The position numbers and the translations under genes were made by a program. Of a stretch of DNA of 47,938 nucleotides, positions 22,871 to 36,003 are shown piece after piece. Position 1 is the stretch's first letter, and each line of letters begins with the position of its first letter. The stretch covers positions 1 to 47,938 of the forward strand of contig WQWU01000014.1 in NCBI GenBank assembly GCA_009785215.1. The letters run 5' to 3'. Source of the DNA: Treponema sp. Lineage in GTDB: Bacteria; Spirochaetota; Spirochaetia; Treponematales; Breznakiellaceae. The notes under the pieces were generated by a model that saw nothing but the letters and a program-made list of their open reading frames with translations, was not told where the DNA came from and searched no databases.

Positions 22871-23194
22871 ATGTCAAAAGCACATAGAGGCAAAGGAATA
22901 AGAGATCAATTTGCTCATGGCCGCGGCGAATGCCCGGTTTGTAATAGAAATAATGTAAAAACTTTATATGAACAGGAAGCAGGCGGGCAAAAATTTAAAA
23001 TTTGTAAAGTATGCAAAGCTGCTGTAAAAAACGGCAAAAAAAAGCTGCCGGTTGTTGAAATGCCGCCTGCGGCGGAAGCTCCGGCAGCGTCACCAGCTCC
23101 TGCGCCTGCGGCGGAAGCTCCGGCAGCAGAAACTGTATCTGCAGCAGCGGAACCTGCGGCTGAAACTGAAAGCGCTTCTGAAGCAACAGCTTAA
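22871..23194 (+). CDS. Zinc-ribbon protein at the end of the ribosomal operon (function unknown)
   Basis: This 107-residue protein is not a ribosomal protein I recognise. Residues 1-57 are basic and hold a zinc-ribbon-like site: C21/C24 (GECPVCNRNNVK) and C45/C48 (KICKVCKAAVKNGKKK). The remaining 50 residues are a disordered tail of Ala, Pro and Glu. It begins at the base after the rplQ stop, so it is almost certainly co-transcribed and highly expressed. A ribosome- or polymerase-associated role is an inference from position only. A homologue may sit in the same place in other treponemes, but I cannot confirm it here. Confidence 0.85.
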   Translation: MSKAHRGKGIRDQFAHGRGECPVCNRNNVKTLYEQEAGGQKFKICKVCKAAVKNGKKKLPVVEMPPAAEAPAASPAPAPAAEAPAAETVSAAAEPAAETESASEATA

Positions 23195-23233: not shown

Positions 23234-24352
23234 TTAAAATGGATTTCTCATTAAAATAGTTGTGTTCATTCTTTCCAGAACACCGTAAAAAAAGTTCATT
23301 GTAAGATTATTGTCTGCAGCCCTTAATCCGTGAGCCGCAAGGAGCTCGTCTGAATAAAGGTACAATGGGTATAATTTTGTATTTCTAAAACTGCGGTCGT
23401 AATGAGTTATGACCGGTATCAAACCTATATTATGAATAAATAATTCATCTTTTGGGTTTTTTTCAAAGGTTATTACCATCATTCCGCCGATAATTCTTTC
23501 TCTTTCCCGCTGATGAGATGCAAAGTTGCCAAGCGAATAATAACATAAAGTTTCTTTACCGTCCGGGCGTGCGATTTTTTCGAAACGCTGTAATACATGG
23601 GGATGATGACCGATTATTAAATCTACGTTATGCTGTGCAAGAAACTGAGCAAGGTCTGTCTGTGATCTATCAGGCTGCAGTAAGTATTCTGCGCCCCAAT
23701 GCATGGAAACAATTAAAAAATCGCATAATGGGCGCAATTCATTTATTTCCTGAGTCATTTTGTTTCTGTCAATCATGGAAACAAGGTTTGGATTATCTCT
23801 TGGAAGAGGAATCCCGTTCAAACTGAATGTATATGCCAAAAATCCAAGAGTTATATTGTTTCTTGTAATTATCCGCGCACTTGGCCCTTCTTTGCGCGTT
23901 CCAATCACTAAAAACTGTTCAAAAGTATCCAAAAAATCGAGCGTTGCATAAAGACCGTTTCTTCCCATATCCATTGCATGATTGTTTGCAAGATTTAAAA
24001 CTTCAAATCCTGTATCAGCAATCGCATGTGCCATTGCCTGCGGTGTATTAAATAACGGAAATCCAGAATAACCAAAACTTGTTCCTGCCATAACAGTTTC
24101 TACATTAATAAACGCCAGGTCTGCGTTTTTAACTATACTTTTTATTTCTGAATAAACAGGGGTAAAATCGTATGTGCCGTTTGCTTTTAATCCGTCTCTG
24201 ATAAACGAATCGTGTATTAAATTATCGCCTACTGCAACAAAAGTAAGAGTATGGCTCCGGGGAGAGGAAAGATAGTCTTCCGGCGTACTTGGCCTGGAAT
24301 AGCAGGAAAATAAAAGAAAAGGAATTAAAGTAAATAATAGTTTATTTTTCAT
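23234..24352 (-). CDS. CapA-family metallophosphatase-like lipoprotein
   Basis: The ATG at 24352 follows GGAGG by six bases, so it is preferred to the upstream TTG; it gives 372 residues. A lipoprotein signal peptide ends in LLFSC. The CapA/PGA-synthesis fold follows: FVAVGDNLIHD, ADLAFINVETV, LNLANNHAMDMG, SMHWGAEY, and DLIIGHHPHVLQ. Metal-binding D, N and H residues typical of calcineurin-like enzymes are present. CapA proteins act in poly-gamma-glutamate capsule export, but most family members in non-capsulated bacteria have no known substrate. It overlaps the end of prmC by 11 bases. Confidence 0.85.
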   Translation of the reverse strand: MKNKLLFTLIPFLLFSCYSRPSTPEDYLSSPRSHTLTFVAVGDNLIHDSFIRDGLKANGTYDFTPVYSEIKSIVKNADLAFINVETVMAGTSFGYSGFPLFNTPQAMAHAIADTGFEVLNLANNHAMDMGRNGLYATLDFLDTFEQFLVIGTRKEGPSARIITRNNITLGFLAYTFSLNGIPLPRDNPNLVSMIDRNKMTQEINELRPLCDFLIVSMHWGAEYLLQPDRSQTDLAQFLAQHNVDLIIGHHPHVLQRFEKIARPDGKETLCYYSLGNFASHQRERERIIGGMMVITFEKNPKDELFIHNIGLIPVITHYDRSFRNTKLYPLYLYSDELLAAHGLRAADNNLTMNFFYGVLERMNTTILMRNPF

Positions 24353-25346
24353 ATCTTCCTCCAATTACCCTTTGTAAGCCGGAAAGGTCATTATATAATT
24401 GTATATCCTTAAACCCTTTTTTATCAAGTAAAATTTGTATCTCATGCATTTGCCGCGGATCTGCTTCCAGCAGAAGAAAGCCGTTTTGTTCCAGGTAATT
24501 TGGCACTTTATCTATTATTTGTTTAATTATTTCCAATCCGCAAGCGCCGCCGTCTAATGCAAGCCTAGGTTCATTTTGCACTTCTGCGGAGAGGGTTTCA
24601 ATTTCTGCCGATGGAATATACGGCGGATTAGAGATGATTAATGCGAATTTTTGAGTAGAAGAGTTCTCGCAGACTTCGAACCGGAACCGACACCGAGACC
24701 AAAGGTCGAGGTTCCCCTCTGGCAGGTTCGGCGGAGACACAGAGGGCGCGGAGGCAGGAGAAGGTGAAGAGAAAGCATAAAATAAGTCTCCAAGAAAAAA
24801 TTGAATTTTATTTTTACCTAATAGTCTTTCTGCGTTTTCTTTAGCAGTTTTTAAAGCATTAGGGCAAATGTCTGTTGCATAAACTTCTAATTCAGGTTTT
24901 TCATGTTTTAAAGAAACTGCAATAGCTCCAGAGCCGGTACACAAATCCAAAACCTTTATTTCCTCTCTGCGTCCTTTGCTCTTAATATTGGCTGCGCTAG
25001 CAGCTTGCGTCTCTGCGTGAGATATTAATCCAATCGCTGTTTCTACAAGTGTCTCTGTATCGGGTCTTGGTACAAGTACCGCTTTATTTACTAAAAACTC
25101 TAACCCCCAGAATTCTTTTTTACCTGTTAAATAAGCAATACACTCTCCGCCTGCCCTTCTTTCTATTAATTCGCAGTATACAGCGCAGTATTTATCTGAA
25201 ATTTTTTCATTATTTGCTGTTATAATAAATGTCCGGTCTTTTTTTAAAACAAACGCAAGCAATAAAGATGCATCAAGCTCGTGAGTCTTTATTCCTGCAT
25301 ATTTTAAATCTGCGCTGCCCTGCGCATAAGCTTCGCGGACAAACAT
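24342..25346 (-). CDS. prmC: Release factor glutamine methyltransferase, with repeat-derived insertions
   Basis: PrmC methylates the glutamine of the GGQ motif in release factors, and it lies just after prfA here. Motifs are the N-terminal helix bundle, VPRPDTETLVETAI, the SAM loop DLCTGSGAIAVSLK, the catalytic NPPYIPS, and EPRLALDGGACGLEII. At 334 residues it is about 50 longer than usual. The excess maps to two places. Residues 109-129 (SHAETQAASAANIKSKGRRE) precede motif I. Residues about 192-230 lie just before NPPY and are proline-, serine- and charge-rich. Both coincide with copies of the short repeat family. The catalytic motifs are intact, so the enzyme is probably active. Confidence 0.93.
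   Translation of the reverse strand: MFVREAYAQGSADLKYAGIKTHELDASLLLAFVLKKDRTFIITANNEKISDKYCAVYCELIERRAGGECIAYLTGKKEFWGLEFLVNKAVLVPRPDTETLVETAIGLISHAETQAASAANIKSKGRREEIKVLDLCTGSGAIAVSLKHEKPELEVYATDICPNALKTAKENAERLLGKNKIQFFLGDLFYAFSSPSPASAPSVSPPNLPEGNLDLWSRCRFRFEVCENSSTQKFALIISNPPYIPSAEIETLSAEVQNEPRLALDGGACGLEIIKQIIDKVPNYLEQNGFLLLEADPRQMHEIQILLDKKGFKDIQLYNDLSGLQRVIGGRYEK
24658..24775. repeat. Palindromic repeat inside prmC (copy shared with the helicase gene)
   Basis: Bases 24658-24744 match 30604-30690 in reverse complement over 87 positions, with about seven differences. A central 55-base run is identical (24675-24729). The core starts TCGAACCGGAACC and ends GGCAGGTTCG. It contains GACC-AAA-GGTC at its centre, so it is an imperfect palindrome. 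Flanks resemble TTCTCGCAGA and GAGACACAGAGG, as in the intergenic repeats. Confidence 0.85.
24964..25022. repeat. Second repeat insertion inside prmC
   Basis: CTCTGCGTCCTTTG (near 24964) and GCGTCTCTGCGTGAG (25007-25021) are typical halves of the repeat family. They flank a short stretch containing GCTGCGCTAGCAGC, itself palindromic. The translated product is an extra 20-residue segment in PrmC. Confidence 0.6.
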
Positions 25347-27105: not shown

Positions 27106-28670
27106 AAAGATTTAGTTTAATAAGTTTGATAATATTGATAGTTTTCCTTTCCTGCGAAACTATGCCGTATGCTGCTGAAGAAAAGTTATTGGTAATGGAA
27201 GTAAAACCTGAACAAGAACTTGAAACAGAAATAGTACTGGAAACAGAACTATTTTATGAAACCGAAGAAATTCTGCTGGCGGAAGAAGAGCCGATTATTG
27301 ATACCAGTATATTGTTAGCTGAAGCCGATGAAAGATTGGCGGAAATGGAACAGCAATTGGCAGGTATGGAACAATTGCTTGCAGAAATGGAACGGCGTTT
27401 GGCAGATATAGAGATTGCAGCAGAAGAACCTTCTGCGCTGCCAGTGGTTACAACACCGATACAAACACCGCCGCCAGCGGTGACGCCAGCAGTACCGCCA
27501 GCAGTGACGCCAGCGTCGCCGCCAGCGTCGCCGCCAGCGTCGCCGCCAGCGTCGCCGCCAGCGATACCGCAAGTGCCGCCGACAGCGGCGCCGCCTCCTG
27601 TACCTATACCTGTGCCGCTTCCAGCAGAAATAATAGAAGAAACTGCAGAAACGAATGAACCAACGCACACCGGTTTTTCTCGTAATGATCAATCTGTACC
27701 TGCCGCGCGGATAGATAATCTAACTCAAATGGGAATAACTCCCCTTGATACTGAAATAGTTTATTCAAGGATTGTACGCGCTACAGTTGGTCAAGTTTTA
27801 GAAATACCTTTCCGGGGAACGGGCTGGGTTTATTTGGGAGAAATTGCATCAAGGCGCGGCATTGTTTATAGTTCGCGGCGCAATGATGCAGAAGGTCTAA
27901 GTTTTATTTTTGCGCTGGAAGCGGCTGGAACTTATACTTTAAAATTTTACAGACAGGATTTTATCAGAGATTATATACTTAATGATCATGTTCAGGTAAT
28001 TGTTGGAGAAGCTCCGGCAGCTGGTGCAGGATGGTTTAATGCGCCGGTTGACAGGGGCAGGGTAGTTGCTCAGCCTCGCTGGCCTTCACCGCTTGAAGAA
28101 GCGCAAATTCGAAGCGGCGTTATGCCTTCCGGCGAACCTGTTGTTTCCGGTACACCAGCGCCGAATGCTGCAACGCCGAGTCAGGAAAGAGCGCCTGCAC
28201 AAACTGCAAGCGCTCCTCAGGCTCAGCAGTTACCTGTTACACAGCCGCAAACAGTTATATCTCCGTCAGCGGCGGATGCGTCTCAAGCCGCTGCGTCTCA
28301 AGCCGCTGCGTCTAACGCCGTTGTATCTAATGCCGCAACGTCTGAATTAACTGCACAAAATGAAGAAGTTTCCATGCCAAGACTAACACCCGAAGTTATT
28401 ATCCAAAGAGCGCAGGAATCTTTTGATGCAGGAAATGTTTCATCTGCAATTTCATTATTAAATCAATATATGGAATATTATCCCGGCGGCAGTGATGAAA
28501 TTTACTGGCTTTACGGGCAATTTTATGAAGCAAACAGTCCAAGCAGAAATATTCTTCTTTCTTTGGATTATTACCGCCGTTTAACGAACGAGTATCCGCA
28601 AAGCAGACGTTTTAATGAAGCGCGGCGCAGGATTGCATACCTGGAAAGATTTTATATTAACATTCAGTAA
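27102..28670 (+). CDS. TPR lipoprotein with proline/alanine-repeat linker
   Basis: This 522-residue protein has a lipoprotein signal peptide (LIILIVFLSC). A coiled coil spans about residues 70-108 (heptad-like LAEMEQQLAGMEQ). A Pro/Ala tract follows at 118-165, including four exact 12-base DNA repeats. A beta-rich domain lies at about 205-297, then an Ala/Gln/Ser tract, and two or three TPR-like helices at 425-522. The order coiled coil, linker, TPR recalls YbgF/CpoB, an envelope factor, but the extra middle domain is different. It is likely periplasmic and membrane-anchored. The upstream gene overlaps it. Confidence 0.72.
   Translation: MKRFSLISLIILIVFLSCETMPYAAEEKLLVMEVKPEQELETEIVLETELFYETEEILLAEEEPIIDTSILLAEADERLAEMEQQLAGMEQLLAEMERRLADIEIAAEEPSALPVVTTPIQTPPPAVTPAVPPAVTPASPPASPPASPPASPPAIPQVPPTAAPPPVPIPVPLPAEIIEETAETNEPTHTGFSRNDQSVPAARIDNLTQMGITPLDTEIVYSRIVRATVGQVLEIPFRGTGWVYLGEIASRRGIVYSSRRNDAEGLSFIFALEAAGTYTLKFYRQDFIRDYILNDHVQVIVGEAPAAGAGWFNAPVDRGRVVAQPRWPSPLEEAQIRSGVMPSGEPVVSGTPAPNAATPSQERAPAQTASAPQAQQLPVTQPQTVISPSAADASQAAASQAAASNAVVSNAATSELTAQNEEVSMPRLTPEVIIQRAQESFDAGNVSSAISLLNQYMEYYPGGSDEIYWLYGQFYEANSPSRNILLSLDYYRRLTNEYPQSRRFNEARRRIAYLERFYINIQ
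27513..27560 (+). repeat. Four tandem 12-base repeats (GCGTCGCCGCCA)
   Basis: Four exact, in-frame copies encode alternating Ala-Ser-Pro-Pro units. Degenerate copies flank them (GTGACGCCAGCA-like units before, GCGATACCGCAA after). The repeat preserves frame when copies are gained or lost, so length variation would alter linker length only. Confidence 0.9.
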
Positions 28671-28683
28671 TTTAAAGATTTTT

Positions 28684-30327
28684 CTAAAGTCTTAACGTAC
28701 TGTTATAAGCCTCGGCGCGGATTTGTTTTATGTTTGGGTCTTTCAGGTAATCATCAAATAACATCATGCGGTCGATAAACCTGTCTCCCTTTTTTTCCTG
28801 CGGCAGAATTTCTATAATCCGGTTTGCTATCGAATTAATAAATTCATGATCGTGCGAGTTAAAAAGAATTACTCCGGGGAAAGCCGAAAGACCGTCATTA
28901 AGGGCTGTAATTGCTTCAAGGTCTAAATGATTTGTAGGTTCATCCAGTATTAAAACATTAACGCCCGAAAGCATCATTTTAGAAAGCATACAGCGGACTT
29001 TTTCGCCGCCGGACAAAACATTTACAGGTTTAAGAGCTTCTTCGCCTGAAAAAAGCATACGGCCGAGAAAACTGCGTACATATGTTTCATCCTGATCCGG
29101 CGAATACTGGCGCAGCCAGTCTGTAATTGATAAATCTGAATTAAAAAAGTGCGAGTTATCTTTTGGAAAGTAGGAAAAAGATGTTGTCTGCCCCCAATAA
29201 CAATCGCCGCTTTCGGCTTGTTTTTCGTTTGTAATTATATCAAAGAAAGCAGATATTGAAGAATGTTCATTTCCTACAAAAGCAATCTTATCTCCCTTGT
29301 TTACAGTTAAAGAAAAATCTTTTAACAAAGAAGTACCTTCGAATGAATAATTTAATTTTTCTGCTCGTAAAACATTATTGCCTATTTCGCGCTCAGGTTT
29401 AAATCCAACATACGGAAATTTTCTGCTTGTTACAGGAACATTGTCAAGATCAAGTTTTTCCAGAACTTTTTTACGGCTTGTTGCCTGTTTTGCTTTGCTT
29501 GCGTTAGATGAAAACCTTTGAATAAAATCCTTTAATTCTTTTGCCTTTTCTTCGCGCTTTTTAAGCTGATCTCTTGCCTGACGCTGTAATATCTGGCTCA
29601 TTTGATACCAGAAATCGTAGTTGCCGGAATACGGCGTTATTTTTCCAAAGTCAATATCACAGACATTTGTACAAACTGCATTTAAAAAGTGGCGGTCGTG
29701 AGAAACAACAATAACTGTGTTGGGAAAATCAATTAAAAAATCTTCAAGCCATGAGATGGATTCCAGATCCAGGCCGTTTGTCGGTTCGTCCAAAAGTAAA
29801 ATATCAGGATTGCCGAAAAGCGCCTGAGCTAGAAGTACACGCACTTTTTTTGATTCATCAAGTTCTGCCATTAGTCTGCCGTGATCGCTTTCATCTAAGC
29901 CAAGGCCGGATAGTAATTGCCCTGCCTGCGCTTCGGCTTCCCATCCGCCAAGTTCGGCAAAATCGGCTTCAAGTTCGCTTGCCTTTAAACCGTCTTCTTC
30001 CGTAAAATCTTCTTTTGCATAAATTAGTTCGCGTTCTTTCTGCACGGCATAAAGTTTTGGATAACCCATAACAACAGTTTCAACTGCAGGAAATTCTTCG
30101 TAAGCAAAGTGATCCTGCTTTAATACGGCAATTCGATTGTTTTTTGCAATGGAAATTTCACCCTTGTCGTGTTCAATTTCGCCGGAAAGAATTTTTAAAA
30201 AAGTTGATTTTCCCGCTCCGTTTGCGCCTATTATACCGTAGCAATTACCGGGAGTAAATTTTAAATTTACATCTTTAAAAAGTGTCCGCTCGCCGAATAC
30301 AAGACTAACATCTGTAACAGTAATCAT
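28684..30327 (-). CDS. ABC-F family ATPase
   Basis: This 547-residue soluble protein has two ABC domains and no membrane segment. Domain 1 has GANGAGKST (about residues 34-42), Walker B ILLLDEPTNGLDLESI and the switch SHDRHF. A charged linker spans about 240-300. Domain 2 keeps LSGGEKVRCML and LILDEPTNHLDLEAI, but its Walker A is replaced by GNEHSSISAFF. ABC-F proteins act on the ribosome in translation control or antibiotic protection. It most resembles the YbiT/YkpA-type branch, some members of which also show this degenerate P-loop as I recall. Its start overlaps the helicase stop (ATGA). Confidence 0.9.
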   Translation of the reverse strand: MITVTDVSLVFGERTLFKDVNLKFTPGNCYGIIGANGAGKSTFLKILSGEIEHDKGEISIAKNNRIAVLKQDHFAYEEFPAVETVVMGYPKLYAVQKERELIYAKEDFTEEDGLKASELEADFAELGGWEAEAQAGQLLSGLGLDESDHGRLMAELDESKKVRVLLAQALFGNPDILLLDEPTNGLDLESISWLEDFLIDFPNTVIVVSHDRHFLNAVCTNVCDIDFGKITPYSGNYDFWYQMSQILQRQARDQLKKREEKAKELKDFIQRFSSNASKAKQATSRKKVLEKLDLDNVPVTSRKFPYVGFKPEREIGNNVLRAEKLNYSFEGTSLLKDFSLTVNKGDKIAFVGNEHSSISAFFDIITNEKQAESGDCYWGQTTSFSYFPKDNSHFFNSDLSITDWLRQYSPDQDETYVRSFLGRMLFSGEEALKPVNVLSGGEKVRCMLSKMMLSGVNVLILDEPTNHLDLEAITALNDGLSAFPGVILFNSHDHEFINSIANRIIEILPQEKKGDRFIDRMMLFDDYLKDPNIKQIRAEAYNSTLRL

Positions 30328-31988
30328 TTATTTTCCTTCTTTTTAAATATTCCAAAAAGTTTTGATAATATTCCTTTTTTTTCGGGTTTTGGATCTTTTA
30401 AAGAAGAACTCTCGCGGAGGCGCGGAGGCGCGGAGGACGCAGGGGAAGAAGAATGTGATTTAGAATACTTCTTCTTGTATACAGCCATCCTGTCTTCCAT
30501 CGAAAGTTTCGAAAGATCTGTGTTTTGCGTCTCTTTTCTTTTGTATTCTCTCTGCGATCTCTGCGTTTCTGCGTCTCTGCGTGAACTCTTATTCTTAAAA
30601 TCTCTTTGCGTCTCTGTCGAACCTGCCAGAGGGGAACCTCGACCTTTGGTCTCGGTGTCGGTTCCGGTTCGATGTCCGCGAGAGCTCTTCTTTGTAAATT
30701 CTCTCTTCTTATTATCTTTCGGTCTATCCTCATATCTATCAGTCTGTATCCTTAAACCCGCGCTTTTATCATCGGCATAGTTTTCCTGCATTGCAATTTC
30801 CGATGGAATTTTTTTACCAATGTAGCGTTCAATGGCTGGCAGTTCATAAACATCCCGTTCGCTGGATAAAGTTATTGCCTTACCTGTCTTTCCTGCACGC
30901 GCAGTTCTGCCGATTCTGTGGACATAATTTTCCGCTTCTGATGGAACATCGTAATTTATTACCATCGAAAGGCTTTCTATATCTAAACCGCGCGCCGCGA
31001 CATCTGTAGCGACAAGCATTTTAATTTTGCCGGATTTTACATTATCGATAACTTTAAGGCGTTTTACCTGCGGTAAGTCACCGATTATAAATTCGCAGGT
31101 GTAACCGTTCATCTTAAGCCGCTTTGCGACAATTTCTGTATTTTTTTTTGTATTGCAGAAAATAATTGCGCTTTCCGGCTGTTCGCGTTTTAAAATACCG
31201 AGCAAAAGCGGCATCTTTTCTTCTGACGGAACATGGTAAAGTATCTGAGTAATTTCTTCGACTGTTACTACTTCCGGTTCTATTTCGATCTCATGCGGCG
31301 ATTTTGTATATTCCCATGCAAGATTTTTTACCCATGCATTTAATGTTGCGCTGAAAAGCATTGTTTGGCGGCGATCGGCAGCTGGCACTACTTTAATTAG
31401 TTTTCGTAAATCTGGATAAAATCCCATGTCGAACATTCTGTCCGCTTCATCTAAAACCAAAAACGAAATGTCCATTAAGTTCATTTTGCCGGATTTGTTT
31501 AAATCCAAAACCCTGCCTGGAGTGCCCACAAGTATTTGTACGTTATCGCGTAATAATTTCTCCTGAGCCGCATAACCGACACCGCCGTAAAATGCGCCTG
31601 TTTTGAAAGGCAGATATTTACTTAATATTTTTGCTTCTTCTTCGATTTGAACAGCCAATTCCCTTGTGGGAGCCATTATCAGCGCTTTGCGTTTAAAAAG
31701 TGTTTCTTCTGTAAGCATTCTCTCAAAGATAACGATTAAAAAAGCGGCAGTTTTTCCTGTGCCTGTCTGGGATTGAACATATAAATCTTGCGAAGCATGA
31801 TAATCCTGCGAAGGTTTGCTGCCATGACTATCATTATTTATTACACCAAAAACATGTGATATTACCTGTTTCTGAACAGGCATACAGGTTATATATCCGG
31901 CTTCATCAATGCCTTTTTGTAAATCGGAATGCAGGTTAAAATCTGTAAATTTCATATCTGTTATTTTTATTGTATCGATTTTTGGCAT
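30324..31988 (-). CDS. DEAD-box RNA helicase with repeat-rich C-terminal tail
   Basis: This 554-residue protein has the whole helicase core: QSQTGTGKTAAF (motif I), APTRELA, TPGRVLD, LVLDEADRMFDMGF (motif II), FSATL (III), VATDVAARGLDI (V) and YVHRIGRTARAG (VI). An 18-residue insert (NNDSHGSKPSQDYHASQD) precedes motif I. After residue about 405 comes a basic tail of Arg, Lys, Ser and Thr. Two segments of it (about 433-481 and 515-530) are translated copies of the short repeat family. The start could also be the methionine at 31955; neither has a good ribosome-binding site. It is probably involved in RNA or ribosome remodelling, like RhlE or CsdA. Confidence 0.92.
   Translation of the reverse strand: MPKIDTIKITDMKFTDFNLHSDLQKGIDEAGYITCMPVQKQVISHVFGVINNDSHGSKPSQDYHASQDLYVQSQTGTGKTAAFLIVIFERMLTEETLFKRKALIMAPTRELAVQIEEEAKILSKYLPFKTGAFYGGVGYAAQEKLLRDNVQILVGTPGRVLDLNKSGKMNLMDISFLVLDEADRMFDMGFYPDLRKLIKVVPAADRRQTMLFSATLNAWVKNLAWEYTKSPHEIEIEPEVVTVEEITQILYHVPSEEKMPLLLGILKREQPESAIIFCNTKKNTEIVAKRLKMNGYTCEFIIGDLPQVKRLKVIDNVKSGKIKMLVATDVAARGLDIESLSMVINYDVPSEAENYVHRIGRTARAGKTGKAITLSSERDVYELPAIERYIGKKIPSEIAMQENYADDKSAGLRIQTDRYEDRPKDNKKREFTKKSSRGHRTGTDTETKGRGSPLAGSTETQRDFKNKSSRRDAETQRSQREYKRKETQNTDLSKLSMEDRMAVYKKKYSKSHSSSPASSAPPRLRESSSLKDPKPEKKGILSKLFGIFKKKENK
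30400..30445. repeat. Repeat copy near the 3' end of the helicase gene
   Basis: GAACTCTCGCGGAGGCGCGG followed by AGGCGCGGAGGACGCAGG is the same unit as in the lon downstream repeat (AGGTTCTCGCAGAGTCGCAG then GGGCGCAGAGGACGCAGAG). It encodes part of SSPASSAPPRLRESSSL, read on the minus strand. Confidence 0.7.
30522..30690. repeat. Composite repeat block in the helicase gene, including the 87-base element
   Basis: The block begins with CTGCGATCTCTGCGTTTCTG and CGTCTCTGCGTGAACTCT (30548-30590). After a short spacer, 30604-30690 matches prmC 24658-24744 in reverse complement with a 55-base identical core. The same DNA is therefore read from opposite strands and in different frames in the two genes, giving unrelated peptides (here HRTGTDTETKGRGSPLAGST). 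Confidence 0.85.
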
Positions 31989-33349: not shown

Positions 33350-33475
33350 GAAGAGTTCACACGGAGGCGCAGAGGCGTAACATTCCTTTGGAATGCAGTG
33401 ATCGCAGAGAGTAAATAGGGGATTTTCTTCTTTTGAATTCTCTGCGTCCTCTGCGTCACTGCGCCTCAGCGAGAG
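33350..33475. repeat. Inverted repeat element between eno and lon
   Basis: GTTCACACGGAGGCGCAGAG (from 33354) at the left end and CTCTGCGTCCTCTGCGTCAC then TGCGCCTCAGCGAGAG at the right end are inverted relative to each other, with about 60 bases between. The transcript could fold into a long imperfect hairpin. It fills almost the whole 143-base gap, so the lon promoter must lie in it or lon must be read from eno. Confidence 0.75.
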
Positions 33476-35877: not shown

Positions 35878-36003
35878 GAAGACCTCTCGCGGAGACGCTG
35901 AGATCGCAGAGAAAAATGAGGGAGAAGGAAAGTATTAATTAATCTTCTGCCATATTCTGCTCTGCGTCCTCTGCGCCCCTGCGACTCTGCGAGAACCTCT
36001 TAT
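35878..36003. repeat. Inverted repeat element downstream of lon
   Basis: The left end AGACCTCTCGCGGAGACGCT pairs with the right end GCGACTCTGCGAGAACCTCT as inverted copies, about 80 bases apart. Between them are CGCAGAG and CTCTGCGTCCTCTGCGCC. It sits between convergent genes, where its stem could act as a bidirectional terminator. It has the best-preserved full-length form of the family in this window. Confidence 0.78.

Follow-up and report, generated by a model that had tools for sequence, protein, structure and literature searches.

A short hairpin-forming DNA element, very probably mobile, dispersed within one family of spirochaetes

The analysed DNA, hereafter the window, is a stretch of 47,938 nt from Treponema sp. 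(assembly GCA_009785215.1, contig WQWU01000014.1, positions 1 to 47,938, forward strand). It contains two oppositely oriented copies of a hairpin-forming repeat, copy A within the prmC gene and copy B within a gene for a DEAD-box RNA helicase (Table 1). Both host genes lie on the minus strand and both open reading frames (ORFs) stay open, the repeat being read as LPEGNLDLWSRCRFRF in the former and as GTDTETKGRGSPLAG in the latter; an earlier note on this DNA had placed both copies in coding regions without a break of frame, which held. The alignment of the prmC product to E. coli HemK was interrupted at the insert. When the longer stretch around copy A was compared with the reverse complement of that around copy B, exactly seven mismatches were found over 87 nt (positions 24664, 24671, 24675, 24731, 24733, 24739 and 24742), three to the left and four to the right of a 55-nt core that was identical between the copies, in agreement with the roughly seven differences and 55 identical central bases noted previously. 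The inverted ends CGAACC and GGTTCG and the GACC-AAA-GGTC centre, described in the same note, were likewise present in the window copies. A repeat finder run on the window reported the pair as an 88-nt inverted repeat of 92% complementarity, and none of 100 dinucleotide shuffles of the window gave a match such as that of the 55-nt core pair.

Table 1. Coordinates of the repeat copies, their host genes and related features.
Feature	Position (nt, in the window unless stated)	Strand	Basis and remarks
Hairpin element copy A, in prmC	24676-24730	forward (GAGGGGAACC) strand = minus	identical 55-nt core; covariance model, 66.8 bits
Copy A model core	24683-24722	-	covariance model
Hairpin element copy B, in the DEAD-box helicase tail	30618-30672	forward strand = plus	identical 55-nt core; 66.8 bits
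Copy B model core	30626-30665	+	covariance model
Compound stretch, copy A with 9-mer-like flanks	24658-24744	-	7 differences, all in the flanks; 9-mer array without the core in the same loop of L245
Compound stretch, copy B with 9-mer-like flanks	30604-30690	+	window repeat comparison, 7 flank differences
prmC (release factor glutamine methyltransferase)	24342-25346	-	PrmC_N and MTS Pfam matches; element in the loop ahead of the NPPY motif
DEAD-box RNA helicase	30324-31988	-	DEAD and Helicase_C matches; element in the variable C-terminal linker (linker alignment)
Second dispersed repeat, CTCTGCGTC 9-mer arrays	400-476, 25006-25030, 30550-30584, 33440-33474, 35960-35994
Single Y1 (RAYT-like) transposase gene of the window genome	L293 1205-2059 (G000:C2)

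The earlier note had taken the 87-base stretch as the unit, and this part of its description was not sustained: the natural unit is about 39 nt in a phosphoglycerate kinase gene and 55 nt in the window, set within an older 9-mer repeat. The flanks of both window cores resemble this other repeat, which forms arrays of the 9-mer CTCTGCGTC, and the prmC orthologue of genome G165 has an array of this kind at the corresponding loop, with the core absent. For these two reasons the 87-nt stretches are read, from sequence comparison, as compound structures in which the hairpin element is nested in two older 9-mer repeats. The distribution of the differences, seven in 32 flank positions against none in 55 core positions, fits this reading. 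Some of the 9-mer arrays appear to lie in ORFs at variable protein loops, giving 'ISHAETQ' in prmC and 'RRDAETQRSQR' in the helicase, and orthologues of both proteins have peptides similar to the 9-mer-repeat peptides in the same loops. When all loci were scanned with a pattern for the 9-mer repeat, a single locus matched, the pattern being too strict. Tandem repeats of 39 and 12 nt also occur in the window (23064-23141 and 27471-27602), with no visible kinship to the element.

Following the comparison within the window, the distribution of the element across genomes was analysed, many of these genomes being incomplete metagenome-assembled ones. A search with a 69-nt DNA query (E ≤ 0.01) gave matches in 21 of the 195 genomes of the taxonomic family, including the window genome, in which the full query found just two copies, both on the same contig; an exact 48-nt match to the core lay within a different gene of genome G153. 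A covariance model (R1) was then built from a seed alignment of 19 equal-length copies, 17 of them distinct. This model detected nine copies in the window genome (74.7% complete), two near-identical and seven more diverged, so that more than the two copies first noted exist there. It matched at least 73 of the 195 family genomes, the window genome included (E ≤ 0.01, 33 candidates scored per genome), and in a draw across the phylum at least 5 of 392 genomes (E ≤ 0.001, 16 candidates scored per genome), all of the same taxonomic family. Ten chosen carrier genomes held between 2 and 30 copies each, with 15 and 8 in the single-contig genomes G139 and G141. The element is dispersed within one bacterial family.

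Species genomes were also scanned with a pattern, by which the sample of loci was partly selected, and at least 116 stretches matched. Among the matches listed, 102 were labelled Treponema, Spirochaetaceae, Spirochaetia, Spirochaetes or Brevinematales and 14 belonged to other phyla. The model accepted 101 of the 102 spirochaete-labelled stretches (E ≤ 0.01; the exception was L179) and none of the 14 listed from other phyla, and a spread to other phyla was therefore rejected. Six IMG/VR contigs matched the pattern, and four of these also matched the model (L207-L210). Judging by their names, we take the pattern-matched isolates to be of termite-gut origin.

The 19-copy alignment revealed a shared plan that consists of a 3-bp closing stem, a fixed hairpin GAGG-GGAA-CCTC, a second hairpin of 4 bp, and TCGG. 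Standard pairs filled 94.1% of the pair cells and 7 of the 11 pairs were changed on both sides, and neither value was reached by any of 500 shuffles. An alternative fold, in which GGAACC pairs with GGTTCC and the second hairpin is unchanged, was weaker (87.6%, 4 of 10 pairs). The closing triplets were fully complementary in 135 of 150 clear-core copies, compared with a mean of 50.6 and a maximum of 67 for permuted 3' triplets, a contrast that is somewhat inflated because the best-pairing TCGG was chosen among several and the permutation ignores relatedness. The closing types included CAA/TTG, CCG/CGG, CCA/TGG and CAG/CTG, with CGA/TCG, ACG/CGT and GCA/TGC occurring singly. The second hairpin had 110 distinct sequences among 152 copies and eight different forms among the nine copies of the window genome. 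The closing stem and the second hairpin vary, yet they stay complementary. Within the four outer pairs of the second hairpin, G-T and A-C mismatches were equally frequent (13 each), which speaks for a constraint at the level of DNA rather than of one RNA strand.

The coding context was then analysed on 161 unique copies, obtained from 180 model hits after 19 duplicates were dropped. The ORF rule was crude (at least 80 aa, greedy by length, open ends allowed) and would miss short gene halves; by this rule, copies of both kinds were found, 109 inside ORFs, 12 partly inside and 40 outside. Random 40-mers from the same loci lay inside ORFs in 6623 of 7726 cases (86%), and the copies are therefore depleted in genes, though most of them sit there. 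ORFs of at least 200 aa hosted 81 of the 109 in-ORF copies, and in the window genome six of the nine copies were in ORFs and three outside. All six frames were used, with 43, 22 and 4 copies on the strand opposite to the gene and 16, 15 and 9 on the same strand.

A Pfam scan was performed on 40 host proteins chosen by eye from 75 rows. The element lay inside the best Pfam stretch in 15 of the 40 and outside the stretches shown in 19, and six proteins were without a match. The 15 comprised UvrC, a class II tRNA synthetase OB-fold, an ABC ATPase (AAA_21), an alpha/beta hydrolase, phosphoglycerate kinase (PGK), PurH, a histidine kinase, a class V aminotransferase, an ADP-ribosylglycohydrolase, a DEAD helicase, D-Ala ligase, AspRS, UvrD, and WYL and pRiA4b ORF-3-like proteins; several host gene names are presumed from motifs. 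Compared with the sequences of solved structures, the element formed unmatched extra residues in PGK, D-Ala ligase, AspRS, cysteine desulfurase and an ABC ATPase. Copies of the element sit in many protein genes, essential ones included, with the reading frame kept, and the proteins probably carry it as short extra loops. We infer that the insert is translated and that the element is mobile.

An empty site is the same position in an orthologue that lacks the insert, and PGK alone allowed one to be drawn exactly. The PGK gene of the window genome has 1299 nt, as opposed to 1260 nt in the G155 orthologue at 95% protein identity, and the difference is an exact in-frame insert of 39 nt. Each of the 29 aligned orthologue loci of the genus showed a 13-codon gap at the element; orthologues were matched in 34 of 39 genus genomes, and four with partial matches were left outside the 30 aligned loci. 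No target-site duplication was visible at this site. The family is young enough for a 95%-identical orthologue to keep the empty site. When 30 prmC and 30 helicase loci were searched with the model, the element was found solely in the window genome's own locus of each. No exact empty site was obtained at either gene, because both positions vary within the genus. The helicase linker of G148 encodes an element-like peptide, but its locus fails the model and was rejected. Alignments of an MptE-like gene and of the helicase linker did not yield element boundaries, and the region of locus L145, compared in eight relatives, showed no empty hairpin site, its intergenic part being unaligned.

The sequences next to the copies were analysed for a target. 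AT stood directly before the element in 73 of 150 copies, and in the CAA/TTG class the last T before the element reached 1.51 bits. Without a fixed register, inverted arms of at least 6 bp surrounded 14 of 147 copies, where about 2% is expected; four of these 14 are of the window type, and their GAACC/GGTTC arms may belong to the element itself. In a fixed register, picked after this register-free look at the arms, and with four CCA/TGT copies excluded, such arms were found in 9 of 146 copies (permuted mean 0.3, maximum 3). L145 and L150 had arms of 15 and 13 bp. A minority of the copies can be read, on these flanking arms, as inserted in hairpin loops. Insertion sequences of the IS1397 type also target palindrome loops, similarly to the nine copies in the loop of another inverted repeat; unlike the element, which encodes none, they encode a transposase. 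IS1397 itself is described, in the available part of the source, as an insertion sequence that targets REPs (PMC1525189). Direct repeats of at least 5 nt adjoined 13 of 150 copies, against 5.6 after permutation, and six of these 13 adjoin a tandem copy. A 10-nt direct repeat accompanies L040, a copy of the window genome, and could represent either a target duplication or a portion of the repeat hosting the copy.

We consider it very likely that the repeat is a mobile DNA element, short and non-autonomous, which forms hairpins. Its anatomy suggests recognition as a folded strand. A copy would move as a folded single strand or as a cruciform, and a putative enzyme would recognise it through the fixed GAGG-GGAA-CCTC hairpin and the TCGG. 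Landings out of frame or in a structural core would be removed by selection, and frame-keeping copies would persist as translated short inserts in surface loops, as reported for the Rickettsia palindromic elements. Selection is the best explanation for the kept frame of the in-gene copies. A more specific version of this model is offered tentatively and is, as a whole, unlikely. It describes a mobile element of about 40 nt, tied to no transposase of a known class, that would insert after AT in hairpin loops and genes; its second hairpin would be rewritten at or after insertion and still be self-complementary, as though, on a folded strand, one arm had served as template for the other, and in some genes the element may supply a tolerated stop and restart or a change of frame.

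Like the element, the REPs, which carry GTAG or CGTC tags, are short folded palindromes that occur partly within genes, and membership in these families, with movement by a RAYT-type Y1 transposase, was considered. In the available part of the source, some REPs are likewise located in genes (PMC3733652). The window genome has one Y1_Tnp gene, and the AT target, together with the missing clear target duplication at the PGK site, would be compatible with a Y1 enzyme. Against this, the consensus of the element has neither tag at its ends, and 16 of 150 copies had either tag, on either strand, close to an end, a count without a control. Y1_Tnp was rarer in carriers (34 of 73) than in non-carriers (85 of 122); across the 195 genomes both were present in 34, the element only in 39, Y1 only in 85 and neither in 37 (odds ratio 0.38, p 0.002), a negative association, and no transposase could be linked to the element. 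Within the window's own genus the corresponding counts were 14, 17, 3 and 5. Furthermore, single-contig G139, with its 15 copies, is missing from the Y1-positive genomes, and no element was found in the 5-kb stretch around the window genome's own Y1 gene. With the absent tags, the negative association and the element-free surroundings of that gene, REP membership is improbable and was rejected.

The mitochondrial byp elements provide a model for skipping at the RNA or ribosome level, and a structured RNA that is perhaps skipped or cut out, so that its residues never reach the protein, would also show a conserved covarying fold. A case in its favour is one gene in L106, L177 and L178, in which the element is out of frame and the upstream and downstream halves lie in different frames, both at low dN/dS (dN of 0.01-0.09, dS of 0.24-0.74); all 44 bases of the element region are identical across the three. 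At the end of the element in this gene, a TTG is preceded by GAAGG, and on this sequence evidence translation could restart there. Frameshift, skipping, recombination or decay may also underlie the gene's structure. Two of the three have further upstream stops, and L177 has an additional small palindromic insert with an in-frame stop upstream.

In-gene byp elements need not keep the frame, a feature that the present family does not share: 109 copies are in ORFs that stay open through the element, and one gene in three genomes has it out of frame. Only 4 of the 52 copies outside or partly in ORFs had at least 80 open codons on both sides, namely L106, L177, L178 and L148, the last at a gene end; L053 and L202 were intermediate. 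The window copies folded no better than shuffles, the equal mismatch counts gave no bias towards an RNA strand, and no Rfam match was found at the element in 10 loci scanned. The out-of-frame gene could restart at its TTG or be decaying. An RNA function or bypass is very improbable and was rejected on the folding, the lack of strand bias and the Rfam scan.

A local inverted duplication of 87 nt, without any mobile family, agrees with the two full-length matches on a single contig of the assembled genome. It does not account for the restriction of all seven differences to the flanks, the exact core match in a gene of G153, the further seven copies, more diverged, of the window genome or the carriers, at least 73 among the 195 genomes, and on these grounds it was rejected as scarcely credible. 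The residues do belong to open reading frames, but the reading of the same DNA in six frames across unrelated proteins and the element-free orthologues of PGK, prmC and the helicase leave a conserved protein motif of the host genes with a negligible probability, and it was rejected.

Protein-coding palindromic elements are reportedly known from the work of Ogata, Claverie and colleagues on the Rickettsia palindromic elements (RPE) and the Wolbachia palindromic repeats. As in this class, the element is a repeat dispersed both inside and outside genes, and an in-frame insert missing from orthologues was found in PGK. The available text describes RPE and Wolbachia repeats as dispersed palindromic DNA that lies between genes and in frame in conserved genes, and RPE as 105-146 bp long, restricted to Rickettsia and with a 12-bp terminal repeat (PMC2229807). 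Compared with these descriptions, the present element differs in its length (39 nt in PGK, about 55 nt in the window), in its spirochaete host, presumably in sequence, and in its combination of a fixed hairpin with a variable second one. Intragenic REPs with GTAG or CGTC tags are similar in being short palindromes of which some lie within ORFs, and they differ from the tagless element, which has no association with a Y1 transposase; in the available part of the paper, the host genes include those of an excinuclease, a UvrD-type helicase and a tRNA synthetase, RPE-4 and RPE-6 are counted among the elements, Treponema goes unmentioned and spirochaetes appear once (PMC3733652). A 2025 survey of REPs includes some spirochaetes; Treponema is not named in the part available (PMC12306157). 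PARCEL is likewise protein-encoding palindromic DNA, in the form of tandem 75-nt (25-aa) domains of membrane-associated proteins, unlike the single inserts in housekeeping genes observed here; the same text, as far as available, cites coding palindromes of Methanocaldococcus jannaschii (PMC2996958). A search of the open-licence literature found no spirochaete description of this hairpin family. The suggestion of the earlier note, a new RPE-like family of protein-coding mobile palindromes, is supported: the dispersal and the absence from orthologues (29 of 29 for PGK) bear it out. Two corrections apply, since the unit is not the 87-nt stretch and short in-gene palindromes of bacteria beyond Rickettsia are already in print, as the available part of PMC3733652 indicates.

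Selfish DNA that adds residues to proteins is best known from Rickettsia and Wolbachia, and the present element is an independent and smaller family, in another phylum and in many genomes. It allows direct tests of the tolerance of essential proteins to new loops. The three-helix design, the copies in hairpin loops and the missing enzyme bear on the way in which elements of this small size move.

Tandem copies of the element were also observed inside ORFs, at L198, L022, L130, L110, L133 and L184. The period was 39 nt in several of these, which corresponds to repeats of about 13 residues.
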